Below are positions 1,543 to 33,948 of a stretch of DNA of 33,948 nt, in pieces. A model generated the notes under the pieces. It had not been told where the DNA came from. It made no database searches and saw only the letters and a program-made list of their open reading frames with translations. The stretch spans positions 1-33,948 of the forward strand of contig JAUNUI010000029.1 in the NCBI GenBank assembly GCA_030538255.1, written 5' to 3'. The stretch is from Pelistega sp. (GTDB lineage Bacteria > Pseudomonadota > Gammaproteobacteria > Burkholderiales > Burkholderiaceae_B). The position numbers and the translations under genes were made by a program. The stretch's first letter is position 1. Each line of letters begins with the position of its first letter.

Positions 1543-1573
1543 AGCTATCAACAAAGAGCTATCAACAAAGAGC
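1543..1573. repeat. 14-bp tandem repeat
   Basis: The unit AGCTATCAACAAAG occurs twice without interruption (1543-1556, 1557-1570) and is followed by the first bases of a third copy (AGC). It lies just before the tesA/ppiD terminator hairpin. Confidence 0.85.
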
Positions 1574-1590
1574 AAGATAGCAATAAAAAA

Positions 1591-1617
1591 TCCCTAATGT
1601 TGCCTCAACACTAGGGA
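1591..1617. terminator. Bidirectional Rho-independent terminator between tesA and ppiD
   Basis: Arms 1591-1602 and 1606-1617 form a 12-bp stem with one A-C mismatch around the loop CCT. It is preceded by six As (1585-1590) and followed by TTAATTTCTT, so a U-rich tail would follow the hairpin on either strand. Both flanking genes point toward it. Confidence 0.75.
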
Positions 1618-1665
1618 TTAATTTCTTAGAAAATGAAAACGATATCAGTTAATTCTTAGTTAATG

Positions 1666-1719
1666 CTCAACTAAGTCTTGGTTAAGCCACAGCTATATCT
1701 CAACTAAGTCTTGGTTAAG
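1666..1719. repeat. 21-bp direct repeat with further degenerate copies
   Basis: An identical 21-mer (core ACTAAGTCTTGGTTAAG) is found at 1666-1686 and 1699-1719, a 33-bp offset. Decayed copies (TTAAGTCTTGTGTAAGTCT, CACTTAGTCTTGGGCTAA) continue to about 1753. Looks like an eroded minisatellite. Confidence 0.8.
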
Positions 1720-1788
1720 TCTTGTGTAAGTCTCCACTTAGTCTTGGGCTAAAACCAATGAGGTCCTAGCCAAGCTCAACACATCATT

Positions 1789-3711
1789 TTAACGTTGTTG
1801 CTCACCGGCAATAATTTGCTGCGCAGGTGCTAAGACTTCAACTTTATGCTGTTCACGTAGTAAGGAACTTACACCACGACCAACATCATTACCTAATACA
1901 ACTTCAAGTTGTGGCATCTGGTATAAATTAAAGAACTGCTTAGCATCGGCACTACCCTCTTTCTTAGATTCAATCAAAGCAATACCATAACCATTATCCA
2001 CTTCAAAGCCTACATAGCTAGGTAGCTTATCGCTTGGTGCATGCATAATCGCATTCATCATGCCTTCCGCTTGATTACCTAACATGCGGCTGAACATAAC
2101 CTCATTACTAAAGCCTGTGCTTGATGAGTCGGCTTGTACCTCAGCTAATACTTTGGCTCCGTCTTCACGTGCTAAGCGTAAGGCTTTTTCAGTTTTCACA
2201 CGAGCGAGTACTTGTTCACGTACTTTATCTAAACTTGGTACTGTTGCAGGAATTTTCTCTGCGATACGCACGACTAATATCTCAGAGGGTGACACTTCAA
2301 TCGTACCCGAGTTAAAGCCCTCATTGAAAACTTCACGCGAATATAAAACTTCTCGCACACGTGGCGTAGCAAATAGAGCTTCTACGGCACTACCTTGAGC
2401 CGCATCAGGACCGACTTGTTCAGCACTTAATAAGCCTGTTGGTGTAATACCTGCGACTTGTTTAATTTCTAGCTGCAAATCGTCTTGCACTGCTTGTAGT
2501 GAGTTACGTTGGTCGTTGACAATATTCGTCAGCTTCGTCGCCATCTCAGCAAACTGCTCGCTCGCTAATTGTAATTTAACTTCTTTCAGTACTTCATCTT
2601 TCACTTCATCATACGACTTTACTGAGCCAGGCTGGATAGAAACAATATTGAAGATATGGTATGAATTACCAACTTTAACAGGATCGGTAATGCCTTCCTG
2701 TGCTAAGGTGAATGCACCATCGTCCAAAGCAGCAATATCACCACGCGCTAATACCCCCAACTCTCCGCCTAAGTTCTTCGTACCCGCATCCATTGAGAAT
2801 TCTTTAGCGAGCGCATCAAAGCTGCTTGGGTCTGCTTTGGCCTTAGCCGTGACTTCATTGGCTTTTTCTAGATTATCACCAGGCAATTGAATATGCTTGA
2901 CATGACGACGCTCTAGCGTTGAATAACGGCGGATATTGCTATTGTAGTAGCCTTGCAACTCCTCAGTAGAAGGGTTAGCCACTTTCGCGACCGCTGCCTC
3001 TTGATTTAATAAGACGTAGCTGGCATTCACATAAGCAGGTACTTCGAGTTCTTTAGCATGAGCATCGTACCATTGCTGAACTTCAGCTTCACTGACTTCT
3101 AGGCCAGACTCATAATTAGCTGCCTCAAACATGCGTAAACGCACGCTACGTTCTTCGGTCATCGCGTCTTCAAGCAACTGCGTGGTTTTCTTAGGCAAGC
3201 TCACGGCAACCGTTGCCGGCCCTGTGACAAGTTGATAGGTCTGGTCTACACGTACAAAATTCTCGTATTGCTGTCCAGTGGCACCAATGCCTTGTAGGAA
3301 ATTATTATATTTCTCCATGGAGAATTGACCCCCTTCACTAAACTGAGGGTCAGTGGCAAGCGCTTGACGTACCATATTGTCACTTGCAAAATAACCTTTC
3401 TCTTGGATTTCTTGGCTAATGACTTTATCCGAAATCAAGCGGTCTAACCAAATTTGACGGTTAGCTGGGGTATCCACTGCAGCAAGATTAAATTGTGCAC
3501 CTTGCTCTTGACGCATCGCATTCAAGCGCTCAGTCCAGGTCTGATTAAATTCACTTTGTGAAATGCTTTCTTTATTAATATTGGCGATTTTCACTTCGTT
3601 AGACACGAAGCCAGAGTAATCTGAAACACCAAAAAAGACAAACGATGGCACAATCAAGATGAACAAAAGGCCCATCATGAGGCGTTGATGCTTACGAATA
3701 AATTCTAACAT
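1789..3711 (-). CDS. ppiD: PpiD-like SurA N-terminal/parvulin periplasmic chaperone
   Basis: Inner-membrane-anchored periplasmic chaperone that meets proteins leaving the SecYEG channel. The 640-residue product starts with a short cytoplasmic tail and one membrane segment (about 12-30), then a SurA_N-like helical region (about 38-200), a parvulin domain (about 268-362, with VKHIQLP, FSMDAGTKNLGGELG and YHIFNI), and a second helical C-terminal region. This matches the architecture and length (about 620 residues) of PpiD. In E. coli the parvulin domain of PpiD is inactive or weak; whether this one is active cannot be told. The start at 3711 places the membrane anchor correctly. It is a single-gene unit here: divergent from the phosphodiesterase gene and convergent with tesA; it is not next to lon/hupB as in enterics. 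Confidence 0.92.
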   Translation of the reverse strand: MLEFIRKHQRLMMGLLFILIVPSFVFFGVSDYSGFVSNEVKIANINKESISQSEFNQTWTERLNAMRQEQGAQFNLAAVDTPANRQIWLDRLISDKVISQEIQEKGYFASDNMVRQALATDPQFSEGGQFSMEKYNNFLQGIGATGQQYENFVRVDQTYQLVTGPATVAVSLPKKTTQLLEDAMTEERSVRLRMFEAANYESGLEVSEAEVQQWYDAHAKELEVPAYVNASYVLLNQEAAVAKVANPSTEELQGYYNSNIRRYSTLERRHVKHIQLPGDNLEKANEVTAKAKADPSSFDALAKEFSMDAGTKNLGGELGVLARGDIAALDDGAFTLAQEGITDPVKVGNSYHIFNIVSIQPGSVKSYDEVKDEVLKEVKLQLASEQFAEMATKLTNIVNDQRNSLQAVQDDLQLEIKQVAGITPTGLLSAEQVGPDAAQGSAVEALFATPRVREVLYSREVFNEGFNSGTIEVSPSEILVVRIAEKIPATVPSLDKVREQVLARVKTEKALRLAREDGAKVLAEVQADSSSTGFSNEVMFSRMLGNQAEGMMNAIMHAPSDKLPSYVGFEVDNGYGIALIESKKEGSADAKQFFNLYQMPQLEVVLGNDVGRGVSSLLREQHKVEVLAPAQQIIAGEQQR

Positions 3712-3757
3712 TGCCTATTCTCTAAAAAGTAATCCTCTATTTTAATGCTTTTCCGCG

Positions 3758-3817
3758 GCTAAGGTAAAGCTATGCGCCTCAGACGCAAGATTATTCATGA
3801 GGCCTTGAAACCTTAGC
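3758..3817. promoter_or_regulatory. Nested inverted repeat between ppiD and the phosphodiesterase gene
   Basis: Outer arms GCTAAGGT (3758-3765) and ACCTTAGC (3810-3817) are perfect complements; inside them GCCTCA (3776-3781) pairs with TGAGGC (3798-3803). The element sits in the divergent promoter region, upstream of both genes, so it could be a structured leader of ppiD or a pair of operator sites. Function is unknown. Confidence 0.4.
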
Positions 3818-3846
3818 AAATACTCACTTTCGTCTCAGCAGCCTCA

Positions 3847-3855
3847 TGCTACAAT
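3847..3855 (+). promoter_or_regulatory. Extended -10 promoter element of the phosphodiesterase gene
   Basis: TGC-TACAAT forms an extended -10 motif 35 bases before the start codon at 3890. No good -35 box is seen at the usual distance, which is common for extended -10 promoters. Prediction from motif only. Confidence 0.4.
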
Positions 3856-3889
3856 AGCTCAGCTTAATCACCTACCCTAAGGATCTATT

Positions 3890-4669
3890 ATGTCTGGCAA
3901 ATCGTCTGGCAAGTCATCAAAAAAATCATCGAGTTTATGGCCTTATCCACGTCTTATCGCCCACCGTGGTGGTGGACGTTTTTCCCCTGAGAATACCCTA
4001 GCCGCCATGCGCTGCGGGCTAGACTATGGTTTTGATATGGTTGAATTCGATGCTAAGTTAAGCCAGGATAATCATGTCATTTTATTGCATGATGACGACG
4101 TTAAGCGTACATCGAATGGGCAAGGCCTTGCCGCTAAGATGACTTTTGTTCAACTTTTAGCCTTGGATATGGGGCAGTGGCATAGTGCCTATTTTGCCGG
4201 CGAAAGCATACCAACGCTCGCTAGTGTTGCCCGCTTTACGAATGAAAATCAGATTATTTGTAATATTGAAATCAAGCCTTGCCCAGGTCGTGAAGAAGAA
4301 ACGGGCCGCTTAGTTGCGCAAGCCGCTGCAGAGCTTTTTAAAGATGCTGCCATTGCCCCCCTACTTTCTTCCTTCTCTGAAGTGTCACTTGAGGCGGCAT
4401 TTAAAGCAGCACCTCAGTTACCGCGAGCCTTCTTATGCGAAGAGTACGATAAATCTGCAGAAAAAGTGTTAAAACGTCTTGGCTGTGTTGCCGTCAACTT
4501 AAAGCAATCTGTTCTTACCGAGAAACTTATCACTAAAATTCATCAGGACGGCTATCGCGTATCCGCTTGGACAGTAAATGATTATCGCCGAGCCAAAGAA
4601 CTCTTAGCCTGGGGATGTGATGCGCTATTTACTGATGAGTTAGAGCGCATTCCTGCCTCGCTAGCTTAA
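3890..4669 (+). CDS. ugpQ: Cytoplasmic glycerophosphodiester phosphodiesterase
   Basis: Cleaves glycerophosphodiesters to glycerol-3-phosphate and an alcohol, feeding phospholipid-derived glycerol and phosphate into metabolism. The 259-residue product has the GDPD hallmarks: His25-Arg26 (AHRGG), Glu34-Asn35, Glu52 and Asp54 (VEFDAK), His67 (LLHDDD), and the EIKP metal-binding segment near 130, ending with SAWTVND and the ALFTDE motif. No signal peptide is present, so it resembles cytoplasmic UgpQ rather than periplasmic GlpQ. The N-terminus is a serine/lysine tract (SGKSSGKSSKKSSS) ahead of the catalytic barrel, itself encoded by a small tandem repeat. TAAGGA ends 6 bases before the ATG. The last codons run into the 23-24 bp repeat array that follows. 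No ugp transporter genes are nearby. Confidence 0.9.
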   Translation: MSGKSSGKSSKKSSSLWPYPRLIAHRGGGRFSPENTLAAMRCGLDYGFDMVEFDAKLSQDNHVILLHDDDVKRTSNGQGLAAKMTFVQLLALDMGQWHSAYFAGESIPTLASVARFTNENQIICNIEIKPCPGREEETGRLVAQAAAELFKDAAIAPLLSSFSEVSLEAAFKAAPQLPRAFLCEEYDKSAEKVLKRLGCVAVNLKQSVLTEKLITKIHQDGYRVSAWTVNDYRRAKELLAWGCDALFTDELERIPASLA

Positions 4670-4825
4670 CAAGGCCTGCCTTGCTCGCTTTAATAATGCT
4701 GGCTTCTCTCGCTTAATAACGGCGTCGTCACTTGCTTATATAATGCCGACGTCACTCGCTTAACAATGTTTGTCACACTCGCTTTTATAATGCCAGTTGC
4801 GCCCGCTTTAAAACTCCCGCCCCAA
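4657..4825. repeat. Degenerate 23-24 bp tandem array between the phosphodiesterase gene and rlmJ
   Basis: The anchor CTCGCTT (or a one-base variant) recurs at 4684, 4708, 4731, 4755, 4778 and 4802, giving spacings of 24, 23, 24, 23 and 24 bases. A seventh, longer copy at 4657-4683 contains the stop codon of the upstream gene. The approximate unit is CTCGCTT-TATAATGCC-GNNGTCA. Several units carry a TATAAT-like hexamer (for instance 4739-4744 and 4786-4791). The copies differ at many positions, so this is an old, eroded array. A small leftward open frame across it reads as repeat translation and is not called. Confidence 0.85.
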
Positions 4826-8491: not shown

Positions 8492-11266
8492 TTATGGCGC
8501 ATGCCAATAGCGTAATTGCTCCTCCCTTAAAGCCTTAAGCACCAGCCCCTTATAACTTGAGCTCACCTGGATAGCCCCCTGATTCGCGGTATTCCACAAC
8601 TGCGCTCCACTGTCCAACCAACGTCGCACCACCGCCTTATGTGGATGACCATAACGATTGCCATAAGCCGCTTGCACGATCACATGCTGTGGTTGAGTTT
8701 GTCCGACAAAATGCGGGCTTGATGAACTCGAAGAGCCGTGATGCGCAGCCACCACCAAATCCACGCTCGGCCAATCAAATTGCTCCTCTTGTGCACGTAA
8801 AATATCACCCGTTAATAAGGCGCTGTGCTGCCTCCCCTCAATCATCAGTACGCAGCTACGCTCATTGCCTGCATGTTGGGGTAACTCGGCTTGTGCTTGC
8901 GGGAACATAAAGCGAAACCGTACCCCATCCCAGCTAAACTCATGGCCACTTTGACACGCTTGATAAGCTAGCTCAGTTGTGACTGGGGTGATCTCACGAC
9001 CCCACTGAACCTGTTCAGCCTGTAAAAAATAATCTAATTGAAATGAGGCATAGGCATGTCGCACCGGCCAATCGCTAATTAAACTCGCAAAACCCCCACT
9101 GTGGTCACTATCGGTATGTGAAACCACCACCGCATCAAGTTCACCGACACCTAAGTAGCGAAAGCTTGGAATCAGCACTCTGGTCGCTGAGTCATGCTCT
9201 AGCTCAGTCTTAACACCCGTATCAAATAATAAGCTATGCTTGCTGGTCCGCACCAAGATAGCACTGGCCTGCCCCACATCGAACGCCCATAATTGCCAAT
9301 CACCCTCGGTTATGGGGTGTTGACGCCCGATAAAAGCGGGCATAAGAAATAGCAGTGCCAAGGGTTTCAAGGGCAAGCCTTTGGGTAAAACAAAACATAA
9401 CACACCAAACAAAGCCAAGGCTAAAGCCCAGCCTGATGCACCTGGTAGATTAAGACTTGCCCATGGTAAAGCAGCGAGCAGCTGGGTTAACTGCATCGTG
9501 TAATCAAGTAATTGATGGCATGAGTCGGCCCACCATTGCGTAAGCTTAATGTATGGATTAAACAATGCCAATACCCCTAGCAACAAGGCCATAGGCGTCA
9601 CTATAGCACCCACCATCAGAATCGCATAAGCATTGACCAGCGGTGATATCAGGGAGACTTGATTAAAGAAAATCAATAAAAAAGGCGCTAAAACTATAGT
9701 GATGGCCAATTGCATACGGCCCCATAGTTTAAGCTTATAGAGAATACTTATAAGCTTCGCCAAGGTAGTCGTGCCGACTTTCGGACTCGGTTCCAAGACC
9801 ATTTGAATCACAAGGTGCCGTAAAACCGCCACCGCGGCAAATGATAAGTAAAAGCCAGGGGCTAAGATAGCCCAGGGATCTAAGAACAAAACCACCAAGG
9901 CCACTACCGCAAACATGCTGCTAATCGACATAGGCAGTCGTAATAGATTACAGAGATAAAATAAAGCCAACATTAAGAAGGTTCGCTGCGCGGGTACTCC
10001 CCAACCTGCCAGCAAACAATAAGCTAGCGCTACAATCACCCCTAGCGCCCCTGCCCAATACAATCCTGCTTGGCGATCCGCTAAAGACTTGCCACGCCAA
10101 CGGCAATAAGGCCAAAGCCACATAAACATAAGAATGACGATGCTCGATAGCATAGTAATATGGGAGCCACTGATTGAGACGAGATGCGTCATCCCTGTGC
10201 GATTAAAGAGCTCCCAATCCTCACTGGAAATACTACTTTGGTCACCCATCACCAAGGCAATCAATACAGCACCATAACGCTTATCGTGCAAATAGCGGTG
10301 CATCGCTTCACGAATATCATGCCGTAAGGCTTGAACCCACGTATCCCAGGAGCCAGCCTCATAGCGTTTAAGCAATTGTGGCGTGCCACGCACATGGGCA
10401 AGTGCCAATACATTCTCACGAAAGGCATAGGTCTCATAATCAAAACCACCAGGATTGATTAAGCTACGTGGACTTTTTAATTCCAAACTCATGGCCCAAA
10501 CTTGCCCAGGCCGCACGAGAATGGGTCGCTGCACGAGTTGAACTCTTGCTGCAGTTGACGATTCAAGACCTACAAAATTTTCACCCACTTCTATGTCAGA
10601 GACGCTTATTGAGCCAGTCTTCGCAGGACTCTCAGCTAGATTAATTTCAGCGGCCTTTTGCTTAAGCTGCCCCTTCTTAGATTTTGCTGTTTCTTCAGGC
10701 TCAGTCAGCGGCCAGCGCACTCTAATAGTTTCGGGAATGCCTCCTGCAGGCGTAGAACTCAATACTTGCGCATCAAAGCGTATGGCTTCAGGTGTGTACA
10801 AGGCAATTGAACTAACTCGCAATTGCACACGTGCCACCTTACCTTCATGCACAGCCGTTAAGCGTTGATTAATACGTTCATGCGCTTGATCCAATGCATA
10901 GCTAAATGACAGACCAAACCCCAGTGCTATAGCCATACCATACGTGTATGGCTGGCCAAGTCGGCTAATGATGAGCCGCCCACCTATTATGCAGCGCCCA
11001 TCCACTACTCTAGATACCTGTTTAAGCCAGACCTTATGCAAAGAGTGCGCGATGAGTCGCCCACCCACGACTCTGCGTCTCTGTTTAAGCAAGGCCTTGC
11101 ATGAAGACCGTGTTGCAATGAGTAAGCACGTCAACGTAGACAGAGCCAAACCTACCCAGACAAATTCATGCGCAGGTAATTGAGGCAATATAGCCATAAG
11201 GGCGAAGGCAAGAATGCCGGCAAAACAGAAAGCGCTTAACATCTGCTCATCATACGAGCAAGCCAT
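8492..11266 (-). CDS. comEC: DNA internalization competence protein ComEC/Rec2
   Basis: Inner-membrane channel that carries single-stranded DNA into the cytoplasm during natural transformation. The 924 residues show N-terminal membrane segments, an OB-like DUF4131 region (about 135-300), the competence core with MTHLVSISGSHITML (SISGSH at 364-369) and about ten membrane helices (370-640), then a metallo-beta-lactamase domain: FDVGQAS, FDTG (682-685), VVSHTDSDHSGG (717-722 ligands), LLTGD (817-821) and AAHHGSSSSSS (842 on). The ligand set is complete, so the nuclease-like domain may be active. Full length and intact motifs suggest a working gene. Two atypical hydrophilic insertions are seen: residues 60-98, with a decayed internal duplication, and about 190-228. 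Start at 11266 is likely but a second Met (residue 9) is possible. Confidence 0.92.
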   Translation of the reverse strand: MACSYDEQMLSAFCFAGILAFALMAILPQLPAHEFVWVGLALSTLTCLLIATRSSCKALLKQRRRVVGGRLIAHSLHKVWLKQVSRVVDGRCIIGGRLIISRLGQPYTYGMAIALGFGLSFSYALDQAHERINQRLTAVHEGKVARVQLRVSSIALYTPEAIRFDAQVLSSTPAGGIPETIRVRWPLTEPEETAKSKKGQLKQKAAEINLAESPAKTGSISVSDIEVGENFVGLESSTAARVQLVQRPILVRPGQVWAMSLELKSPRSLINPGGFDYETYAFRENVLALAHVRGTPQLLKRYEAGSWDTWVQALRHDIREAMHRYLHDKRYGAVLIALVMGDQSSISSEDWELFNRTGMTHLVSISGSHITMLSSIVILMFMWLWPYCRWRGKSLADRQAGLYWAGALGVIVALAYCLLAGWGVPAQRTFLMLALFYLCNLLRLPMSISSMFAVVALVVLFLDPWAILAPGFYLSFAAVAVLRHLVIQMVLEPSPKVGTTTLAKLISILYKLKLWGRMQLAITIVLAPFLLIFFNQVSLISPLVNAYAILMVGAIVTPMALLLGVLALFNPYIKLTQWWADSCHQLLDYTMQLTQLLAALPWASLNLPGASGWALALALFGVLCFVLPKGLPLKPLALLFLMPAFIGRQHPITEGDWQLWAFDVGQASAILVRTSKHSLLFDTGVKTELEHDSATRVLIPSFRYLGVGELDAVVVSHTDSDHSGGFASLISDWPVRHAYASFQLDYFLQAEQVQWGREITPVTTELAYQACQSGHEFSWDGVRFRFMFPQAQAELPQHAGNERSCVLMIEGRQHSALLTGDILRAQEEQFDWPSVDLVVAAHHGSSSSSSPHFVGQTQPQHVIVQAAYGNRYGHPHKAVVRRWLDSGAQLWNTANQGAIQVSSSYKGLVLKALREEQLRYWHAP
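10970..11107. repeat. Degenerate in-frame duplication inside the comEC N-terminal region
   Basis: GATGAGCCGCCCACC at 10970-10984 recurs as GATGAGTCGCCCACC at 11051-11065, and each copy is followed at a shorter or longer distance by CTGTTTAAGC and a TTATGCAAAGA/TTGCATGAAGA-like end. The first copy is about 18 bases longer. In protein the copies read VVGGRLIAHSLHK and VVDGRCIIGGRLI, separating predicted membrane segments. Confidence 0.7.
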
Positions 11267-11435: not shown

Positions 11436-12386
11436 TCAGCTCATGCGCGTAAGCACACGCTGCACATTAGCGCCTGTCGCACTAACAATATCTTGATAGG
11501 AAACCCCACGTAAATCAGCCAACTCACGGGCAATACGCGGCAAATACTCAGGGCTATTGCGGCGCTGACCTTGTGTATCTGGCGTTAAGAACGCAGGTGG
11601 GATATCAGGCGCATCGGTCTCTAAGACAATCTGCGCCAAGTCCAACTCAGTAGCCAAGCGACGGATTTGCAAGGAACGAGGATAGGTCAAGGTGCCGCCA
11701 AAGCCCAGACAAAAACCCAAATCGATAAATGCCTGCGCCTGTTGCATTGAGCCATTAAACGCGTGCGCAATACCGCCTGGCACCCTAATCCGCCGCAAGT
11801 ATTTAAGTAAAGTATCTTGGGAGCGTCGCACATGCAGGATAACTGGCAACTGATAACGCTGCGCCAATTTTAATTGTTCTTGGTAAAAATGCTCTTGCCG
11901 CTCACGTTCAGCACCTTCACTTATTTCAGGCACAAAGAAATCCAAACCAATCTCACCGATACCCACAAATAGGGGGTCATCTAAAGCCTTAACAATTGCC
12001 GCCTCCAAGTCGCTTAAGGCAGGTTCACGAGAATAAACCTCAACAGATCTATCAGAGCCTTGTTTATAGTCCATATCAACACGGACATCGACACTAGTGC
12101 CAATATCTCTATTAGCGCTCCTACCCTCATTCTCTTGATGGGATGGATTATTTCTCTCTTGAAATTCTGCTTGCGCACAATAGCGCACATACATGGGATG
12201 AATGCCTAAAGCATAATAGGCTCCCGTCACTTGTTGGGCAAACTCAGCGACAGTGGCAAAATTATCAGGATGCACCGCAGGGATGACTACCTTGCTTACG
12301 CCCAAACTCTGCGCCTGCGCCCAGACCTGCAAGCGGTCAGAATCAAACTCAGCTGCATCTAAGTGGCAATGACTATCGATCAACAT
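11436..12386 (-). CDS. tatD: TatD/YcfH-family metal-dependent hydrolase (DNase)
   Basis: TIM-barrel metallohydrolase of the TatD family; members act as 3'-5' exonucleases or other phosphoesterases. In 316 residues the metal ligands are all visible: His6 and His8 (DSHCHLD), Glu145 (GEIGLDF), His185 (ILHVRR), His208 (IAHAFNG) and the Asp of LETDAPD. Length exceeds the usual 255-265 because residues about 70-124 form a polar, low-complexity insertion between ALGIHPMYV and the SDLEAAI helix. The insertion is in frame and rich in Asp, Ser, Arg and Glu. Which family member (TatD, YcfH, YjjV) it is cannot be settled; the YjjV-like AHAFNGS segment is noted, so the symbol is tentative. Confidence 0.85.
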   Translation of the reverse strand: MLIDSHCHLDAAEFDSDRLQVWAQAQSLGVSKVVIPAVHPDNFATVAEFAQQVTGAYYALGIHPMYVRYCAQAEFQERNNPSHQENEGRSANRDIGTSVDVRVDMDYKQGSDRSVEVYSREPALSDLEAAIVKALDDPLFVGIGEIGLDFFVPEISEGAERERQEHFYQEQLKLAQRYQLPVILHVRRSQDTLLKYLRRIRVPGGIAHAFNGSMQQAQAFIDLGFCLGFGGTLTYPRSLQIRRLATELDLAQIVLETDAPDIPPAFLTPDTQGQRRNSPEYLPRIARELADLRGVSYQDIVSATGANVQRVLTRMS

Positions 12387-12490
12387 AGGATTCCTTTAAG
12401 CATAAATTCATAGCAGATTAGATGAATGAATTTACATATAATCGACATAGATCATTATACGTATAATTCTTCCACATTATTGACGCCCTC

Positions 12491-12612
12491 CTTGCCTTCA
12501 AGGATAGAGTTTTACTGTGCGTACTCATAGACTCCATAAAACTTCCCCCTTCTTGCCTTCAAGGATAGAGTTTTACTGTGCGCACTCATAGACTCCATAA
12601 CACTTCCTCCTC
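12491..12612. repeat. 61-bp tandem duplication
   Basis: Copy 1 at 12491-12551 and copy 2 at 12552-12612 abut and differ at only a few positions (GTACTC/GCACTC, CATAAAAC/CATAACAC, CCCCCT/CCTCCT). Each copy begins with CTTGCCTTCAAGG, which contains a short inverted repeat (CTTG/CAAG). The high identity makes this the youngest-looking repeat in the window. Part of it lies within about 100 bases of the tatD start and 280 bases upstream of ubiM. Confidence 0.92.
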
Positions 12613-17569: not shown

Positions 17570-19273
17570 GTGGCCAATTATATTATTAAAGACCGTGAGG
17601 TCAACACAGAATTCGAAGCTAAACTTATCCAACAAGGTATCACACCCTTGATGGCACGTCTTTGGGCAGCACGTGGGGTGAGCGATATTGAACAAACCCA
17701 GACGCAATGGAAGCAGATGCTCGCCCCAAATCTCCTCACACAAGTCGAATATGGTGCGCAACTCTTAGCCGATGCAATTGAAACCGGCAAGCGCCTTTTA
17801 ATCGTTGCTGACTACGATTGCGATGGTGCCACCGCTTGTGCGGTTGGTGTGCGTGCCTTACGCATGATGGGGGCGCAAGTGGATTTTATGGTGCCCAATC
17901 GCTTTGAGACGGGTTATGGCTTATCGCCTGCGGTGATTGATGTGATTCTTCGTCAGGTCGAGCCAAAACCAGACATTCTGATTACCGTCGATAATGGTAT
18001 CGCCAGTGTTGACGGAGTGGCTGCCGCTAAAGCGCATGGCATGGAGGTTATTGTGACCGATCACCATCTACCTGGCGATGAGCTCCCTGATGCGCTCGCC
18101 ATCATTAATCCAAACCAAGTGGCTTGTGACTTCCCCTCTAAAAACTTAGCGGGCGTTGGTGTGATTTTCTATACTATGTTAGCGTTACGGGCCGAGCTGC
18201 GTGCTCGTGGACATTTTACTAATCGTCCCGAACCCAAACTGGATGGCTTGGCTGATTTAGTCGCCTTAGGTACCGTGGCTGACGTGGTGAAACTCGATAG
18301 CAATAATCGTATCTTTGTCAGTCAAGGTTTAGCGAAGATGCGCGCAGGTCAGATGCAAGCGGGGATTCAAGCCCTCTTCACGGTTGCCAGCACCGATCCT
18401 CGTCAAGCTAGCGCAATGGATCTCGGCTTTAAGATTGGCCCTCGCATCAATGCGGCAGGCCGCTTAGCCGATATGAGTATTGGCATCCGTTGCCTACTTA
18501 CCGATGACTTTGCTGAAGCCTTGGAGCTCGCGCAAGAACTGGATCAATGGAATCATTCACGTCGCTCAATTGAACAAAATATGAGTGAACAAGCCATGGT
18601 CACTCTAGATAGCGAAGATTTCCCCTTAAAACACAGCATTTGCATTTTTAATGCTGATTGGCATCAAGGGGTGGTCGGTATTGTCGCCTCTCGCTTAAAA
18701 GAGAAATTCTGGAAACCTACCTTAGCCTTTGCACCAGGTGATAATGGCGAAATTCGTGGCTCTGGTCGTTCGGTACCTGACGTGCATCTACGCGATGCTC
18801 TGGATCTCGTCTCTAAACGCCATCCACACTTAATTGCTAAGTTCGGTGGTCACGCCATGGCAGCAGGCCTCACCATTGCTGAGGCTGATTTTGAGACCTT
18901 TATCCACGCCTTTGACCAAGCCGTAGTCGATATTAGTGGCAAGACTGAGTTCGCCCCCATCATTGAAACCGATGGTTCCTTAAACCCCTTGTATGCCAGC
19001 GCAGATACCGCGGTTGCGCTAAACAATATGGTCTGGGGGGCGGGTTTCCCAGCACCTATTTTCCGCGATGTCTTTGAGATTCGTTCGCAGCGCCTTTTAA
19101 AAGATAAACACTTAAAACTCCAAGTCGCACGCCATAATATGGTGTTTGATGCCATCTGGTTTAATCATAATGAGGCCTTACCACCAAGCGTCGAGTTAAT
19201 TTATGAGTTAAGCCCGAATTATTGGAATGGCAATGTGACTCTACAATTTATGGTGCGCCATGCGATATACTAG
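17570..19273 (+). CDS. recJ: Single-stranded-DNA-specific 5'-3' exonuclease RecJ
   Basis: Degrades single-stranded DNA 5' to 3' in RecF-pathway recombination, mismatch repair and base excision repair. The 567 residues show the DHH core: VADYDCDGA (Asp81, Asp83, Asp85), TVDNG (Asp141), VTDHHLPG (Asp164, His165, His166), a later LVALGTVADVV segment with the final Asp, then GPRINAAGRL, the DHHA1 motif GGHAMAAGLTI, and the C-terminal OB domain. All metal ligands are present and length matches the family. The start is GTG at 17570 with AGGAA nine bases upstream. It is followed by a small lipoprotein gene and prfB. Near comEC and tatD, it adds to a local set of DNA-processing genes, but no shared operon exists. 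Confidence 0.95.
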   Translation: MANYIIKDREVNTEFEAKLIQQGITPLMARLWAARGVSDIEQTQTQWKQMLAPNLLTQVEYGAQLLADAIETGKRLLIVADYDCDGATACAVGVRALRMMGAQVDFMVPNRFETGYGLSPAVIDVILRQVEPKPDILITVDNGIASVDGVAAAKAHGMEVIVTDHHLPGDELPDALAIINPNQVACDFPSKNLAGVGVIFYTMLALRAELRARGHFTNRPEPKLDGLADLVALGTVADVVKLDSNNRIFVSQGLAKMRAGQMQAGIQALFTVASTDPRQASAMDLGFKIGPRINAAGRLADMSIGIRCLLTDDFAEALELAQELDQWNHSRRSIEQNMSEQAMVTLDSEDFPLKHSICIFNADWHQGVVGIVASRLKEKFWKPTLAFAPGDNGEIRGSGRSVPDVHLRDALDLVSKRHPHLIAKFGGHAMAAGLTIAEADFETFIHAFDQAVVDISGKTEFAPIIETDGSLNPLYASADTAVALNNMVWGAGFPAPIFRDVFEIRSQRLLKDKHLKLQVARHNMVFDAIWFNHNEALPPSVELIYELSPNYWNGNVTLQFMVRHAIY

Positions 19274-20744: not shown

Positions 20745-21812
20745 ATGAGTACACGCCTTGCGCTCTCTCCTCGTACTGTTGCTATTGTGACAGGGGCCTC
20801 ACGCGGCCTGGGCCAGGCGTTTGCGCATGAACTGGTGACTCAGTGTACGCATGTGTTAACGCTTGCACGGCAGGCACAAGCCGACAAGCAAACCGCTCTG
20901 ATAGCGGCGCAACACGGTTGTCAGTTGCAACATATTGCCTGTGATCTAAGTGATGCTGCTCAATGGCCAGCTATTGCTGAACAAGTGCAAGCATGGTTTA
21001 AGCAACTTGGTTCTACAAGTGCACAAGAACCAGTCGCTATTTTTAAGCAAGAGCCAAGTTTTAAGCAAGAGCCAAGTGCGGATATCGCACAGCAAGAACC
21101 AAGGCTGAGTAACACTGAGCAAGCACAGACCACTGCAGCCGCCCTATTACCTGAGCGTTATTTGCTAATTAATAATGCGGGTACACTTGGACCAATGGCG
21201 CAATACTCAGGCTTAGCCGAACTCGGTAGCGAAAGTGCCGCGATTGCTCAAGCCATGAACTTGAATATCAGCGCTGTGATTTATTTAAGCAGTGTGTTTG
21301 TGCATACGGCCAAGTCTAGTCATGACAATGCACTCGCACATACAGTAGCAGTAAACCACGACAATGCTTTTGTAGCTGCAGTACCCTCAAGTCATGGCAC
21401 CGATGCTCTGCTAACACCTGCAGTACCATCAAGCTATGATGCTGATGCTTCGCAGACACCGAAGATTCAAGTAATTAATATTTCCTCTGGCGCGGCACGC
21501 AATCCCTATCCAGGATGGGCAGTGTATTGCGCCAGCAAAGCTGCTTTAGACCGTTATAGCGAGGTCTTACAAGTCGAAGCGCCTTTTGCTCAGATTGTTT
21601 CTATCGCACCTGGTGTGCTCGACACCGCTATGCAAGCTGATATTCGCCAAAGTTGCGCTGAGGACTTCCCGAACGTTCAGCGCTTTATCGATTTACATGC
21701 TGAGCACGCATTAAGCTCACCACCCGCTGTCGCTAAGCAGATTTTAGCGTACAGCCTTAGCCCAGAATTTGGCCAACAAACCTTACAAGATATTCGTTTA
21801 ATTACCCCGTAA
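20745..21812 (+). CDS. Short-chain dehydrogenase/reductase with repeat-derived insertions
   Basis: Classical SDR fold, NAD(P)H-dependent, substrate unknown; the overall pattern (ISSGAARNPYPGWAVYCASKAALD) is reminiscent of sepiapterin/benzil-reductase-like SDRs. Motifs: TGASRGLG cofactor loop (16-23), LINNAG, active Ser in NISSGAA and Tyr/Lys in YCASK. The chain is 355 residues, about 100 more than usual, because of two in-frame insertions: about 101-132, with FKQEPS twice in tandem, and about 192-240, with four degenerate 10-14-residue repeats of the S-H-D-N-A type. Both lie at loops between core strands. It sits 3 bases after prfB and 6 before lysS and depends on their transcription. A catalytic role in translation is not implied by this position. 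Confidence 0.85.
   Translation: MSTRLALSPRTVAIVTGASRGLGQAFAHELVTQCTHVLTLARQAQADKQTALIAAQHGCQLQHIACDLSDAAQWPAIAEQVQAWFKQLGSTSAQEPVAIFKQEPSFKQEPSADIAQQEPRLSNTEQAQTTAAALLPERYLLINNAGTLGPMAQYSGLAELGSESAAIAQAMNLNISAVIYLSSVFVHTAKSSHDNALAHTVAVNHDNAFVAAVPSSHGTDALLTPAVPSSYDADASQTPKIQVINISSGAARNPYPGWAVYCASKAALDRYSEVLQVEAPFAQIVSIAPGVLDTAMQADIRQSCAEDFPNVQRFIDLHAEHALSSPPAVAKQILAYSLSPEFGQQTLQDIRLITP
21041..21076. repeat. 18-bp exact tandem repeat in the SDR gene
   Basis: TTTTAAGCAAGAGCCAAG occurs at 21041-21058 and 21059-21076 with no gap. It adds one FKQEPS hexapeptide in frame. Looser copies (CAGCAAGAACCAAGG) follow. Confidence 0.92.
21318..21461. repeat. Degenerate 36-42 bp coding repeat, four copies, in the SDR gene
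   Basis: Units begin at 21318 (36 bp), 21354 (36 bp), 21390 (42 bp) and 21432 (about 30 bp), each starting with an AGT-CAT-GAC-like codon set and two ending GCAGTACC(C/A)TCA. Protein units read SHDNALAHTVAV, NHDNAFVAAVPS, SHGTDALLTPAVPS and SYDADASQTP. Confidence 0.85.
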
Positions 21813-25124: not shown

Positions 25125-26702
25125 ATGCATAAGAAGTTACTCATTTCAGCATTATCCGCGGCACTGCTGGTACCCATGGCGGCCCAAGCCAAGACTTTTC
25201 GTTGGGCGAGTCAAGGTGATATTTTGACCTTAGACCCTCATGCACAAAACGAAGGGCTTAACATTGCCGCCAGTAGTTACGTCTATGATACCCTCGTGCA
25301 ATACGATAAAGACTTTAAAATCACACCAATGCTTGCCACCGAGTGGGAAACACCTTCTGACACTTTATGGCGCTTTAAAATTCGTGAAGGCGTGAAATTT
25401 CATGATGGTTCAGACTTTAGCGCTGAAGATGCGGCATTCTCCATTCACCGTGCCATGGCCCCTACTTCTAACTTCAAAGCCTATGTCTATGGCATTAAAC
25501 AAGCACGCGCGATCGACGCTCACACCCTAGAAATTGAACTCATCGCCCCCAATCCCGTCTTACTGCGTCAATTAACCAATCTCTTTATCATGAGTAAGGC
25601 CTGGTCTGAGGCGAACAATGCCGCACAACCACAAGATTTTACGAAAAAGGAAGAGACTTTCTCGGCACGCAATGCCATGGGTACAGGCCCTTATAAACTG
25701 TCATCGCGTCAAGTAGATGTTCGTACCGAGTATGTCGAGAATGAAAACTGGTGGAATAAAGACCAGAAAGTCGGCAATGTTACGCGTATCATCTATACCC
25801 CAATTACCCAAAGTGCTACCCGTACCGCCGCGCTTTTATCAGGTGAAGTTGACTTTGTGCTTGATCCTCCAGCGCAAGACCTTGACCGCATCAAGCGCCA
25901 AGCCAAAGTAGTTGAAGGCAATGAATACCGCACGATTTATATTGGTCTCGACCAAAAGAGCGATGAGTTGAAGTACAGCTCACTCAAAGGCAAAAATCCC
26001 TTTGCTGATGTACGTGTTCGTGAAGCCCTCTATTTAGCTATCGATACCGAAGCGATTAAGCGCTCTGTTATGCGTGGTTCTTCAGCGCCTACCGGCACCA
26101 TGATTGCCCCACAAGTTAACGGTTGGACCGAAGAATTAGCACAGCGCCCTAAACCTGATGTGGAAAAAGCCCAAGAGCTGATTAAACAAGCGGGTTATCA
26201 GCCAAACGAAATTAATTTCACTCTGGACTGTCCAAATAACCGTTACATTAACGATGAAGCAATTTGCCAAGCCGTTGTGGCGATGTGGGCACGAATTGGC
26301 GTGAAAGCTAACCTAAACTCAATGCCTCGCGCCACCTACTTCCCGAAAGTCCAGTCTTACGATACTAGCGCCTATTTATTCGGCTGGGGTGTACCGACAT
26401 TCGATGCGCTGTATACCTTACAGAGTCTAATTCATAGTAAGGGCGAAGGGGCTGATGGTTCATTTAACTTTGGTAATTATGAAAATGCTGAAGTCGATAA
26501 ACTGATCGATACCGTTAAGACCGAAACCGATGATGCAAAGCGCACCGCCGCCATTCATCAAGTTTTAAAAACCCACGCCCAAGAATTCGGTCATCTTCCC
26601 ATCCATGACCAAGTTATCCCTTGGGCCATGGCGAAGAATGTAGATGTCATCCACCGTGCGGATAATCGCTTAACAATAGACTGGGTAGTGATTAATGACT
26701 AA
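25125..26702 (+). CDS. Periplasmic peptide-type substrate-binding protein (SBP family 5)
   Basis: Captures substrate (peptides, or another family-5 ligand) in the periplasm for the permease pair encoded downstream. The 525 residues begin with a classic signal peptide (KK at 3-4, hydrophobic core, cleavage after A-Q-A at 22), then FRWASQGDILTLDPHAQ, the family motif WRFKIREGVKFHDGSDFSAED (about 85-105), GTGPYKL, and ADVRVREALYLAIDTEAI. The fold and length are those of DppA/GsiB-type proteins. Ligand cannot be read from the sequence. GGAG lies 8 bases before the ATG. It is the first gene of a five-gene importer; the 220-base gap and hairpin after it probably let it be made in excess over the permeases. 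Confidence 0.9.
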   Translation: MHKKLLISALSAALLVPMAAQAKTFRWASQGDILTLDPHAQNEGLNIAASSYVYDTLVQYDKDFKITPMLATEWETPSDTLWRFKIREGVKFHDGSDFSAEDAAFSIHRAMAPTSNFKAYVYGIKQARAIDAHTLEIELIAPNPVLLRQLTNLFIMSKAWSEANNAAQPQDFTKKEETFSARNAMGTGPYKLSSRQVDVRTEYVENENWWNKDQKVGNVTRIIYTPITQSATRTAALLSGEVDFVLDPPAQDLDRIKRQAKVVEGNEYRTIYIGLDQKSDELKYSSLKGKNPFADVRVREALYLAIDTEAIKRSVMRGSSAPTGTMIAPQVNGWTEELAQRPKPDVEKAQELIKQAGYQPNEINFTLDCPNNRYINDEAICQAVVAMWARIGVKANLNSMPRATYFPKVQSYDTSAYLFGWGVPTFDALYTLQSLIHSKGEGADGSFNFGNYENAEVDKLIDTVKTETDDAKRTAAIHQVLKTHAQEFGHLPIHDQVIPWAMAKNVDVIHRADNRLTIDWVVIND

Positions 26703-26748
26703 TCGTTAATGACGAATAATTATTGACGAATCATGAATGACGTATTTT

Positions 26749-30792: not shown

Positions 30793-30851
30793 GCGCCCAT
30801 AGCTCTTCTGTCAAAGTAAGTGTACAAAGCCACCTCTTAACTATGATGGTT

Positions 30852-30941
30852 CATCAACGCCGACATATTCTGGGATGATCCTAGTAGAACTCACAGTGGC
30901 CCCTTAACTATAAAGCTGAGGGGCGTGATTAGGCGTTGATG
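30852..30941 (+). other. Nested inverted repeat / possible composite terminator after the DppF-like gene
   Basis: CATCAACGCC (30852-30861) is the exact complement of GGCGTTGATG (30932-30941), and inside lies GCCCCTTA (30899-30906) pairing with TGAGGGGC (30917-30924) with one G-U pair. The 90-base element begins 60 bases past the operon stop. No T-run follows closely, so a terminator is only one option; the two-level stem also fits a structured RNA. Confidence 0.5.
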
Positions 30942-31035
30942 CAGAAAACCACCTTCCTTTTCTAAAGTCTACCAGCAGGTCTTCCCCTAGCTTCCTTCTT
31001 TAAAAGGCGTCAGAACAAGCACTTCACCCAATCCA

Positions 31036-31045
31036 TGACATGTCA
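31036..31045. promoter_or_regulatory. Perfect palindrome TGACATGTCA
   Basis: A self-complementary 10-mer 131 bases upstream of the cdiI-like gene start. TTGTCA (31051-31056) follows within 6 bases. It could be an operator, but 10-bp palindromes occur by chance. Confidence 0.25.
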
Positions 31046-31166
31046 CGATATTGTCATTTTAGCCATCTACAATAGAGCCAATGAATGCTAAATACCTATA
31101 AAAACAAATAGTTATTTAGCAATTAACAGACCATATTTCTAAGCAATATTTCATATGGTGACGGCG

Positions 31167-31493
31167 ATGAATGATTACCCTCTTCTTGAACAATTAATGT
31201 GCGAATACCTGCATCGAGACTACGACTTGCTTACAGGCACAGATAATATTGAAGATGTAATTGATGTGTATATTGAAGAAACTTGTCTTCAGAACTTACA
31301 CAATATCATCATAGAAATCAGTTACTTCACCTCTAGCTACCAACAAGATCTGGATAACAAGTTCGAGCGTATCTTGGATCCCGATATCCCTATTCAATCA
31401 GCAGCAGAGTTTCTCAACATGGTAAGCAACAAAGTCAAGGCGCGAATCCTGCGTAATGGCTACGACTATTCTGCTGATAAGTTGTGTGCTTAA
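31167..31493 (+). CDS. CdiI-like contact-dependent inhibition immunity protein, orphan
   Basis: 108 residues, acidic, mostly helical, no signal peptide. The opening NDYPLLEQLMCEYLHRDYDLL followed by an acidic helix (NIEDVIDVYIEE) matches in pattern the (F/Y)PxLxQLxxxYxHQDW start of a family of CDI immunity proteins that protect a cell from a neighbour's toxin. Identification is from pattern memory only. I chose ATG 31167 because GGTGA lies 5 bases before it; ATG 31155 would add four residues. No cdiA toxin, cdiB secretion gene or toxin fragment is seen on either side, so it is an orphan. Low-GC, AT-rich flanks and tandem repeats right after it fit an acquired cassette remnant, but this is inference. 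Confidence 0.6.
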   Translation: MNDYPLLEQLMCEYLHRDYDLLTGTDNIEDVIDVYIEETCLQNLHNIIIEISYFTSSYQQDLDNKFERILDPDIPIQSAAEFLNMVSNKVKARILRNGYDYSADKLCA

Positions 31494-31530
31494 ACTCCTT
31501 ATGTGCTGTTCATGTAAGAAGTTGTCGCTC

Positions 31531-31675
31531 AGCCTTCAAGCTAGTCGTGCAAAGTCAGTATTCAATTTAGCCGTTCAGCTACTTCAAGCTATCCCTTCAA
31601 GCTATCCCTTCAAGCGCCCAGTTCAGCTAAATTTCAGCCAAACTTCCGTTTATCTGAACCCTCCCTTCAGCGTAT
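31531..31675. repeat. TTCAAGC/TTCAGC tandem repeat region
   Basis: TTCAAGCTATCCC occurs at 31583-31595 and 31596-31608, followed by the partial copy TTCAAGCGCCC (31609-31619). Looser TTCA(A)GC copies (CTTCAAGCTAGTC, GTTCAGCTAC, GTTCAGCTAAATTTCAGCC) extend on both sides. It fills most of the gap between the cdiI-like gene and the MFS gene. Confidence 0.85.
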
Positions 31676-31743
31676 ATTGATATCTGAAATACGCAGAACT
31701 GTATAGAATCAAAAGCATGTTTCATCTTTTTCTTTAATATGCT

Positions 31744-32919
31744 GTGGAATCGTTTATCAGTCCTCGGGCCAAGACAAATTATATTCTGTTTTGTATAGCC
31801 ACTTTTCTAGCCTTCTTAACCATGTCAACCTTGGCATACTTGGCTGTGGTACTCGACAATCTGCACTATTCCACTGAGCGCATCGGTTTCGTCTTATCGT
31901 CCCCTTTTCTGCCAACCTTATTTGGCACGCTGGTTGTTGGGCGTCTTATGCAAAGTTATAGTGCGATCCAGATTGCCATTTCAGGCTTGTTAATCTGTTC
32001 TATCAGCTTTTTACTCATGCAATATGGGGTGCATCACCCCTTGTTTCTCACTATTCTACGTGGCTGTGTCGGTCTAGGATTCGGGCTGTTTTTCTCTTCT
32101 TCCATGCTATTTGCTCGCAATTTGCTGCAAGGACCCAACATCCCTTATTTTTTCGGTATTTATGTCAGTATGCTACCCCTGCCAAATATTCTTGGTCCGA
32201 GTTTGATGGAAATTTATTATGACCGTATTGGGATTAATGGCTTATTTTTAATACTGGGAATTCCACTGCTTACTGGCTTACTGATGTTGATTTGGATTGC
32301 ACGCCATGAGGATAAGACGGCCGCACTTGGCCCGCAAACTAACAGTACAACTAGCTATTTATCGGTTTTTAAAGACCGCCGTAATTACTTACCAATGTCA
32401 GGCGTGATTGTCGTCGGATTTTTATGGGGATTTATCGCCTCATTCTTGGCGCTCCATCTCAAGAATAATCAGATTCCTATGATTTATTACTTTTTACCGA
32501 CCACCGGTACTTTATTCTTATCACGCTTGATACTTATGAAATGGATCATTCGTTATCCAATTGCAACAGGCGTCGGCCTTGGATTTGTGGCCATGGGCTT
32601 GGCCAATCTCATCTTATTCTACCCAAGCATACCAACAGTGATTATCGCGGGAGCGGTCTTTGGCTTAGGCTATAGCTTTGCTTTCCCTTTGCTCAGTACA
32701 TGGTTCTCTGAACATTACCCCCTGCATGAACGAGCCAAACCCACCGCTATCTTCAACGCTTGCTTTCAATTCGGTATCTGCTTAATCCCACTCATTAGTG
32801 GTTATATCATTGCTAACTTCAGCACCACCACAGTCTTAATTGGTTTGGTAACTGTGGCGTTTGTGTTCGCCTGCTTAATGCTATTAAATCGACACGCGGG
32901 GAAATTAGGAACCCAATAA
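31744..32919 (+). CDS. Major facilitator superfamily transporter
   Basis: Integral inner-membrane transporter; substrate unknown. The 391 residues contain about twelve hydrophobic segments in two halves separated by a polar loop near 190-205 (RHEDKTAALGPQTNSTTS). The segment between helices 2 and 3 reads VVGRLMQSYSA, a poor version of the MFS loop motif, and helix 4-5 has RGCVGLGFGLFFSS. The first residues (SPRAKTNYILFC) look like a normal short N-terminus. The start is GTG at 31744, the first possible codon after an in-frame TAA (31735-31737); no Shine-Dalgarno is seen, so translation may be weak. Drug, sugar and siderophore export are all possible; no neighbour helps to choose. Confidence 0.8.
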   Translation: MESFISPRAKTNYILFCIATFLAFLTMSTLAYLAVVLDNLHYSTERIGFVLSSPFLPTLFGTLVVGRLMQSYSAIQIAISGLLICSISFLLMQYGVHHPLFLTILRGCVGLGFGLFFSSSMLFARNLLQGPNIPYFFGIYVSMLPLPNILGPSLMEIYYDRIGINGLFLILGIPLLTGLLMLIWIARHEDKTAALGPQTNSTTSYLSVFKDRRNYLPMSGVIVVGFLWGFIASFLALHLKNNQIPMIYYFLPTTGTLFLSRLILMKWIIRYPIATGVGLGFVAMGLANLILFYPSIPTVIIAGAVFGLGYSFAFPLLSTWFSEHYPLHERAKPTAIFNACFQFGICLIPLISGYIIANFSTTTVLIGLVTVAFVFACLMLLNRHAGKLGTQ

Positions 32920-33062
32920 GGGTTAGTTTAAACCTCCAAAGATCTTGAATAAAACAAGCAGGCAAACTTAAGCTAAAGTGCCATTGATATACGCGATGAA
33001 ATTAACGCATAAACTACGTGGGCAACTGGACTGAAAGTGCTTACAAGCCACTAAGTTGAAAA

Positions 33063-33434
33063 TCACATATGAGCAAATTGATTCTGTAGATAGTCAATAA
33101 TCTGCTTTGACTCATAAAGCCAAGTGACATTGCCCTCATCATCCGTAATCCGTAAGCAAGGTACTTGGCGCTTGCCCCCTTGTTCGATAAGGACTTTTTC
33201 ATTCGCTGGCTCTTTCGCATCGACAAGTGTGACAGGCACGTTCAAAACATGTAAAGTACGACGTACTTTAATGCAGAATGGGCAAGCATGAAATTGGTAT
33301 AAAGCAAGTTTAGCGGCTTGTTCATTCACTTGCGCCTGTACCTCAGCACTACGCTGCTTCTTAGCCGGGCGAGTCATTTGCTCAACGCCTGCAATAACAC
33401 AACCTAAGCCATTACGAAGGGCATTAACAATCAT
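33063..33434 (-). CDS. Glutaredoxin/GST-N-terminal-domain protein
   Basis: Thioredoxin-fold protein of 123 residues, likely a glutathione-linked redox protein. It has an amphipathic N-terminal segment (MIVNALRNGLGCVIAGVEQM) and a basic linker (RPAKKQRS), then LALYQFHACPFCIKVRR with the dithiol active site Cys51-Pro-Phe-Cys54, the cis-proline segment KRQVPCLRI and the glutathione-binding YESKQIIDYL. The order fits a common proteobacterial family annotated glutaredoxin. The start at 33434 is preferred over one 42 bases upstream because the conserved IVNALRNGLG N-terminus begins there and GAGAGA lies before it. The N-terminal segment may touch the membrane. No partner is seen. Confidence 0.88.
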   Translation of the reverse strand: MIVNALRNGLGCVIAGVEQMTRPAKKQRSAEVQAQVNEQAAKLALYQFHACPFCIKVRRTLHVLNVPVTLVDAKEPANEKVLIEQGGKRQVPCLRITDDEGNVTWLYESKQIIDYLQNQFAHM

Positions 33435-33503
33435 TCTTTTCTCTCTATATGTAATTACTGTCAGAATCCCGCACACGTAAAAATTGTGGCGAACTTCTTG
33501 GGA

Positions 33504-33948
33504 TTATAAGGGTAATTGAGCCTGCAAGTGCGCAATAGATCGCTGCAATTGCTCTTGACGTAGAATAACCTCTTCTTGCAGTTGCTCTAACTCAGTATCA
33601 AGCAACTGTTGCAGATTATAGAGATTATCCTGAATCTGCTTGGAGGCCAAATTCTCTAAGTTAAGATAAATTTTCTCAAAATCATCGGCTCGCAAAACCT
33701 TGGCCTGCTTAAAGTACGCTTCAATCAGCACTCCATTAAACTCACTGACTTCGATCAAGTGGCTTGGAAGGACATACATATCAACAAGAGATTGCTGAAC
33801 TTGAGTTTGATACTCTTTTGCTAGCACTTCAGTGAGGCCTAATTGTAGCGTAGCAAGAGAGGATGAAGACTGCGCACCACTAGCAGCAGCCTCCTCCTGT
33901 GTTATTACCACACAATCAGCGCCATTTACCTCAGCAACATTTACCTCA
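33504..33948 (-). CDS. Coiled-coil protein of unknown function, 5' end outside the window
   Basis: Not recognised. Reading leftward, the frame is open from the window edge to TAA at 33504-33506, giving at least 147 residues. No ATG lies in frame near the right edge; GTG at 33911 is possible (135 residues) but has no clear ribosome binding site, so a start beyond the window is more likely. The visible N-terminal part has a five-residue repeat (EVNVA, EVNGA), then EEAAASGAQSSSS. The C-terminal 60 residues (NLENLASKQIQDNL onward) show heptad-like Leu/Gln/Glu spacing, a predicted coiled coil, ending AHLQAQLPL. The protein is acidic and hydrophilic with no membrane segment. It lies 70 bases from the glutaredoxin-like gene in the same direction. 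Confidence 0.6.
   Translation of the reverse strand, partial: EVNVAEVNGADCVVITQEEAAASGAQSSSSLATLQLGLTEVLAKEYQTQVQQSLVDMYVLPSHLIEVSEFNGVLIEAYFKQAKVLRADDFEKIYLNLENLASKQIQDNLYNLQQLLDTELEQLQEEVILRQEQLQRSIAHLQAQLPL
33923..33948. repeat. 15-bp direct repeat at the right edge, in frame
   Basis: CATTTACCTCA at 33923-33933 recurs at 33938-33948 (period 15). In the leftward gene it encodes two five-residue copies. More copies may lie beyond the window. Confidence 0.6.

Follow-up and report, generated by a model that had tools for sequence, protein, structure and literature searches.

Weathered tandem duplications are dense in the intergenic spacers of a Pelistega-related genome

The intergenic spacers of a Pelistega-related genome (GenBank assembly GCA_030538255.1, referred to here as G000) are dense in short tandem arrays, most of them imperfect. 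The window, the stretch of DNA analyzed here, is contig JAUNUI010000029.1 at its full length of 33,948 nucleotides and constitutes the whole of contig C27 of that genome. A sequence-only reading of the window had noted at least six intergenic repeats of unrelated sequence and had attributed them to a process rather than to a spreading element. The excess of arrays over relatives is genome-wide but is confined to spacers, and coding DNA is not raised. This excess is greatest among decayed arrays and is small or absent among the freshest, a contrast that depends on the cut used to separate the two classes. With a probability that we put at about 0.48, the spacers hold a lasting record of local tandem duplications, numerous and independent of one another, which were either retained longer than in relatives or left behind by a past burst, rather than the product of a present mutator or a set of contingency loci. 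The data fit retention and a past burst alike and do not separate the two.

G000 comprises 2,949,379 bases in 47 contigs and is listed as 100% complete; its RecJ is 78% identical to that of Pelistega suis (G006) and 77% identical to that of P. europaea (G001). The sample drawn from it consisted of 38 stretches totaling 676,265 bases (23% of the genome), with a G+C content of 45.0% versus 37.7 to 41.9% in the samples from six other members of the genus. These six relatives contributed about 1.40 Mb, including 513 kb of P. suis and 372 kb of P. europaea, with the further members being G002 (probably P. indica), G003, G004, and G005. The family comparison used 450 kb from five samples (Advenella loci, G007, G010, G012, and G028), whereas 240 kb from G020, which belongs to another genus of the same family, was left out of the family pool and is reported separately. 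Each species was represented by one genome. Genes were taken in all genomes as the longest open reading frames (ORFs) of at least 80 amino acids, a single Tandem Repeats Finder (TRF) setting was used throughout, and arrays were counted when they had a period of at least 9 bp and a TRF score of at least 45 and lay in gaps of at least 50 bp. Shorter gaps, gaps at the ends of stretches, loci L002, L003, L006, L007, L009, and L194, and short RecJ loci were left out before counting. In the relatives, a handful of long perfect arrays swamped the spectra of 10-mer lags, which were not used.

The gaps of G000 contained 72 arrays in 77.3 kb, or 93 per 100 kb (interval, 74 to 111), and 20.8% of the 318 gaps carried at least one array, while dinucleotide-shuffled versions of the same gaps gave 1.0 array per 100 kb. 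Extrapolation from the sample puts the genome total at about 310 arrays. The gaps of the window itself held 5 arrays in 4.6 kb (108 per 100 kb) versus none in five dinucleotide shuffles. Values were far lower in P. suis (7 arrays in 43.6 kb, 16 per 100 kb; 3.0% of 232 gaps) and P. europaea (11 in 36.5 kb, 30 per 100 kb; 5.9% of 169 gaps), and the rest of the genus ranged from 0 to 26 per 100 kb (G002, 5 in 22.2 kb; G004, 4 in 15.3 kb; G003, 0 in 5.3 kb; G005, 0 in 8.0 kb). The family samples gave 0 to 23 per 100 kb (Advenella, 3 in 12.9 kb; G012, 1 in 7.5 kb; G007, G010, and G028 together, 0 in 19.2 kb). G010 and G028 are similar to G000 in composition (47% G+C) and had zero gap arrays, yet they offered just 5.7 and 5.6 kb of gap, respectively. 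Escherichia coli K-12 run through the identical pipeline had no gap arrays in 16.2 kb. With the window added to the G000 sample, the rate ratios were 5.8 against P. suis (P = 3e-8), 3.1 against P. europaea (P = 1e-4), 4.2 against G002 (P = 2e-4), and 3.6 against G004 (P = 0.005). Coding arrays in G000 stood at 4.7 per 100 kb, inside the relatives' range of 0 to 9.4 (P. suis, 3.6; P. europaea, 5.3). The sequence-only reading had staked its proposal on a repeat density above that of relatives; this comparison upholds it for spacers, at ratios of 3.1 to 5.8 against four genus members, but not for coding DNA.

The gap-array habit is not unique to G000 within the family, since G020 is also rich in arrays, with 16 in 29.2 kb (55 per 100 kb; rate ratio, 1.7; P = 0.046). 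The arrays of G020 are mostly long and fresher, with 10 of 16 at a match of at least 92% (for example, L177:4143-4489 and L179:12625-13113). Seven of its 120 array pairs have a common 10-mer, and one array has a tRNA-like unit.

The 77 gap arrays of G000 and the window together have periods of 12 to 70 bp, a median of 2.5 copies, and a median match of 85%, and they cover 6.2% of the gap DNA sampled; three are perfect (100% match). Their units are unrelated to one another. Array segments had a 14-mer elsewhere in the sample in 23 of 77 cases (25 of 77 under a slightly different exclusion), compared to a mean of 23.8 (range, 17 to 29) in gap segments matched for length that contained no array. 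The claims that the units are independent and share no sequence, and that they reflect a process rather than a spreading element, thus hold for G000 and the window, where independent units occur genome-wide and more densely than in genus relatives. Placement was also uneven. Periods divisible by three made up 25 of 77 in gaps, the chance level, versus 25 of 26 in G000 genes. Array cover was 1.7% within 25 bp of a start codon, climbed to 7.5% at a distance of 125 to 150 bp, and was 5 to 14% on the stop-codon side. Convergent gaps held 21 arrays in 15.1 kb versus 16 in 23.8 kb of divergent gaps (P = 0.029), and codirectional gaps held 40 in 43.0 kb. The sparseness on the start-codon side and in divergent gaps is the pattern that mildly harmful insertions under selection would leave and is the opposite of that of promoter contingency loci.

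When arrays were divided by the match between their copies, the excess was largest below 95%, where density was about sixfold higher: G000 with the window had 69 (84.2 per 100 kb) versus 19 (14.5 per 100 kb) in the six genus relatives (P = 3e-14), whereas arrays at or above 95% numbered 8 (9.8 per 100 kb) versus 8 (6.1 per 100 kb; P = 0.44). A plausible sequence of events is that tandem duplications would arise by slipped-strand mispairing or by local recopying of resident sequence, and that most would remain at two or three copies and then erode by point mutation; the erosion is visible in the copies, and the order of events is our reconstruction. Selection would exclude arrays from genes unless they were in frame and would thin them beside start codons, as the biases in distribution display. 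The difference between lineages may then lie in duplicated spacer DNA that was kept longer, through slower purging or weaker deletion, or in a past burst that has since calmed. That G000 is the largest of the seven genus genomes is consistent with weaker DNA loss.

Several observations weigh against this interpretation. Cuts at 92% and 90% match raise the younger class as well (P = 0.040 and 0.001, respectively), only four of the nine pairings of cut with minimum period gave P < 0.05 in the Fisher test of young versus old arrays, and the counts of young arrays are small (8 versus 8). Short-read assembly may have collapsed perfect arrays, the ORF caller is crude, and the P values assume that arrays are independent. 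In a test based on exact 9-mers, gaps with a close direct repeat made up 34% in G000 versus 11% after shuffling and 18% versus 13% in P. suis, but the proportion was also raised in P. europaea (28% versus 17%) and G020 (32% versus 11%), and the number of base pairs under close 9-mer repeats per kilobase was alike in P. europaea (32.8), G020 (34.4), and G000 (34.6).

The repair genes bear on whether duplications are arising at a raised rate today. The sequence-only reading had offered weak mismatch or exonuclease correction as one cause and had proposed checking the repair homologs; mutS, mutL, polA, recJ, and xseB are present in G000 without stops, and xseA alone of the set was unmatched. The recJ gene of the window is located as follows.
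17570 to 19273, plus strand: recJ (single-stranded DNA exonuclease), reading frame open from end to end.
The mutL frame of G000 (C7:44155-46044), at 744 amino acids, is the longest among the seven genus genomes (580 to 690 in the others). No match to xseA was found in G000, although all 6 of the remaining genus members had one; across the family, 205 of 207 genomes were matched, the blanks being G000 and one genome of 0.7 Mb. In P. suis the order read from the sequence is that of genes which we take, by name, to be sodB-xseA-lpxK-kdsB-adk. Neither lpxK nor sodB was matched in G000 with P. suis queries, in searches that had no positive control genome, so that the empty result proves nothing alone. 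In G000, adk occupies C17:47449-48093, on a contig 49,332 bases long, and is followed by kdsB (67% identity); the contig ends a few hundred bases beyond kdsB, where lpxK is expected, and the frame in between is presumably Trm112-like. The product of kdsB acts in lipopolysaccharide synthesis, and lpxK is normally required alongside it. Because lpxK and sodB are unmatched together with xseA and the contig breaks at that point, the blank at the end of C17 (L194, C17:46500-49332) is likely a gap in the assembly that gives the appearance of a lost ExoVII. Loss of ExoVII as the cause of the arrays was accordingly demoted to a rival explanation, given that sodB and lpxK are also unmatched and the contig ends at the spot. 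Weak correction is not demonstrated by this set, with five of these genes open and the xseA blank best explained by the assembly. Neither mutS nor mutL is broken or missing, as would be expected of a mismatch repair mutator, and mismatch repair is a poor candidate here because the units are too long for its loop range; its efficiency falls sharply beyond loops of 1 to 3 bp, according to an excerpt of PMC4060949.

A present mutator, in which slippage duplications now arise at a raised rate, for example, under weak control by single-stranded DNA exonucleases with ExoI missing and ExoVII possibly lost, seems unlikely to us even so. The xseA blank itself, set against the presence of the gene in all six genus relatives and nearly all of the family, would fit such a mutator, as would the ExoI C-terminal domain, for which no match was found in G000. 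ExoI, ExoX, and RecJ, single-stranded DNA exonucleases among them, are named as stabilizers of tandem repeats in the extract of PMC3942315, and the younger arrays are raised at the 90% cut. Against this stand the probable assembly gap at C17, the retention of xseB, the absence of a rise in coding arrays, and the finding that the freshest arrays are not clearly commoner; moreover, the ExoI domain went unmatched in 5 of the 6 relatives too, and these lack the array excess. The stronger version, that the loss of both ExoI and ExoVII seeded hundreds of independent spacer duplications that were then filtered by selection, we regard as very improbable. If it were true, it would provide a natural counterpart to laboratory exonuclease mutants, and G000 would be the only xseA-less genome of the 207 in the family besides the one of 0.7 Mb.

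The sequence-only reading had also raised selection for variability. Units of minisatellite size that stand head to tail in gaps could be contingency loci, variable repeats held by selection to vary expression, but most arrays have two or three copies (median, 2.5) that match imperfectly, with 3 of 77 arrays at 100%, they are sparse beside start codons and in divergent gaps, and 25 of 26 coding periods keep the frame, so that we find this explanation scarcely credible. A dispersed short element or a shared motif that seeded the arrays deserves hardly any weight. The hexamers CTTAAG, GCCTTA, and AGGCCT are about twofold in excess of a dinucleotide model in G000 gaps, and 8 of 2,926 array pairs have a common 10-mer, but 14-mer sharing was at the control level; with the k-mer excess mild and unit sharing no different from the control, this candidate was rejected. 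An artifact of assembly, gene calling, or composition could be suspected in a 47-contig draft whose genes were called merely as long ORFs. It is nonetheless most improbable, as the copies carry many substitutions (median match, 85%), which assembly cannot invent; the identical pipeline gave low counts in draft relatives, none in E. coli K-12, and the shuffled rate of 1.0 per 100 kb; and gap periods are even across residues modulo 3, which argues against missed genes.

In the window, TRF gives six intergenic arrays, five of them with scores of at least 45, and the claim of at least six intergenic repeats is confirmed. They are listed here without strand, together with one weaker array.
1533 to 1573: intergenic tandem array, 14 bp by 2.9 copies, 92% match, in a convergent gap, TRF score 68.
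1705 to 1733: intergenic tandem array, 11 bp by 2.6 copies, 88% match, TRF score 44 (under the counting cut of 45).
4684 to 4794: decayed intergenic array, 47 bp by 2.4 copies with a 23-bp subperiod, 75% match, TRF score 122.
12486 to 12612: intergenic tandem duplication, 61 bp by 2.1 copies, 92% match, in a divergent gap, TRF score 226.
26691 to 26742: decayed intergenic array, 14 bp by 3.7 copies, 78% match, TRF score 69.
31582 to 31615: intergenic tandem array, 13 bp by 2.6 copies, 100% match, TRF score 68.
31622 to 31646: weak intergenic array reported by TRF.

The coding repeats that had been proposed fared less evenly. Those in the SDR-type gene (20745 to 21812), the ComEC-type gene (8492 to 11266), and the gene that runs off the right edge of the window were recovered, LolD showed weak separated repeat pairs only (24 nucleotides at 71% and 14 nucleotides at 86%), and direct repeats of at least 14 nucleotides were sought and not found in the N terminus of the phosphodiesterase (3890 to 4100), in the TatD-type gene, or in the DUF808 gene.
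21041 to 21077, plus strand: in-frame repeat in the SDR-type gene, 18 bp by 2.1 copies, TRF score 74, with an exact 18 by 2 at 21041 to 21076.
21376 to 21459, plus strand: in-frame decayed repeat in the SDR-type gene, 42 bp by 2 copies, 74% match, from the direct-repeat search.
10995 to 11098, minus strand: direct repeat in the ComEC-type gene, 41 nucleotides, 78% match, spaced 63, from the direct-repeat search.
33916 to 33945, minus strand: repeat in the right-edge gene, 15 bp by 2 copies, 87% match, from the direct-repeat search.
31246 to 31279: weak coding array, 12 bp by 2.8 copies, 73% match.

Polar linker expansions, which had been taken as older products of the same process, are strong in the window and mixed elsewhere in G000. 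In 12 reciprocal pairs with P. suis, the window proteins had 10 insertions (212 amino acids) versus 2 (10 amino acids) in P. suis. The insertions were led by TatD, SDR, and ComEC and reached 49 amino acids, and some are decayed in-frame repeats; the SDR repeat at 21376 to 21459 sits in insertions without a counterpart in P. suis. The longest belongs to the following gene.
11436 to 12386, minus strand: TatD-type gene, with a 49-amino-acid insertion relative to P. suis and no remaining DNA repeat.
The lengthening of window proteins, TatD among them, is clear; no direct repeat of the length sought was found in TatD or DUF808. For G000 minus the window, insertions of at least 4 amino acids were counted against each relative separately. 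They numbered 8 (92 amino acids) versus 12 (88 amino acids) in 95 pairs with P. suis, 9 (100 amino acids) versus 7 (56 amino acids) in 28 pairs with P. europaea, 4 (31 amino acids) versus 2 (9 amino acids) in 13 pairs with G002, and 4 (67 amino acids) versus 1 (4 amino acids) in 22 pairs with G004; the G000 totals in the last three comparisons stem from two to four proteins each. P. europaea compared to P. suis was also lopsided, with 15 insertions (178 amino acids) versus 6 (27 amino acids) in 48 pairs. Against family outgroups, 40 proteins of G000 gave 6 insertions versus 1 deletion, and two proteins accounted for nearly all of these.

To a kind of genome already known, with Ehrlichia ruminantium as the precedent, G000 adds a new and milder example. 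As described in the excerpts of PMC10710844, that organism has long intergenic regions in which expansion and contraction target noncoding tandem repeats; the organism is also named in the extract of PMC3287509. The two genomes are alike in having genome-wide tandem repeats concentrated in noncoding DNA, which in G000 are denser than in relatives (93 versus 16 and 30 per 100 kb for P. suis and P. europaea). E. ruminantium differs, in the same excerpts, in its small genome, about 64% coding, with long gaps and active expansion and contraction. About 87% of the G000 sample (87.3%) lies in ORFs, its median gap among those of at least 50 bp is 201.5 bp, versus 203 bp in P. suis and 206 bp in P. 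europaea, and its arrays have few, mostly decayed copies and are known from one genome; it thus lacks the long gaps and low coding ratio. Borg elements have independent perfect tandem repeats, and the extract of PMC9879509 shows the likeness in independent units, in occurrence in both gaps and ORFs, and in periods divisible by three in ORFs and not in gaps. The Borg repeats described there are perfect, recent, A enriched, and located on archaeal extrachromosomal elements, whereas the arrays of G000 are imperfect (median match, 85%), chromosomal, and raised in gaps only. Bacterial variable-number tandem repeat and contingency loci share with G000 head-to-tail intergenic units of minisatellite size (PMC3287509, in extract) but differ from its few-copy, imperfect arrays lying away from start codons, read in one genome. 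Close pairs of 10-mers are mostly overrepresented in the intergenic DNA of prokaryotes, according to an excerpt of PMC4060949, and G000 differs from this general tendency in amount, with 3 to 6 times the density of four genus members.

The sequence-only reading knew of no such habit in this group, and in literature searches that included Pelistega and Alcaligenaceae we noticed no report of one, judging from the openings of abstracts in limited lists of results. G000 offers a measured case beyond the intracellular bacteria for which spacers rich in repeats have been described, with weathered duplications in gaps and with coding arrays and tested repair genes that look ordinary. Were genomes of sister strains and a closed assembly available, one could ask whether the birth rate of duplications or their retention time sets spacer content. 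The case is also a warning that a repair gene absent from a draft assembly may pass for a cause.

Three further observations concern the genus. Among its seven genomes the ExoI C-terminal domain was matched in G004 only (C1:273030-273818). The hexamers CTTAAG, GCCTTA, and AGGCCT occur in G000 gaps at 2.2 to 2.5 times the prediction of the dinucleotide model. The gap sample of P. europaea contains the palindrome TTCACGTGAA 10 times, with both strands read, and this palindrome presumably resembles a parS site.

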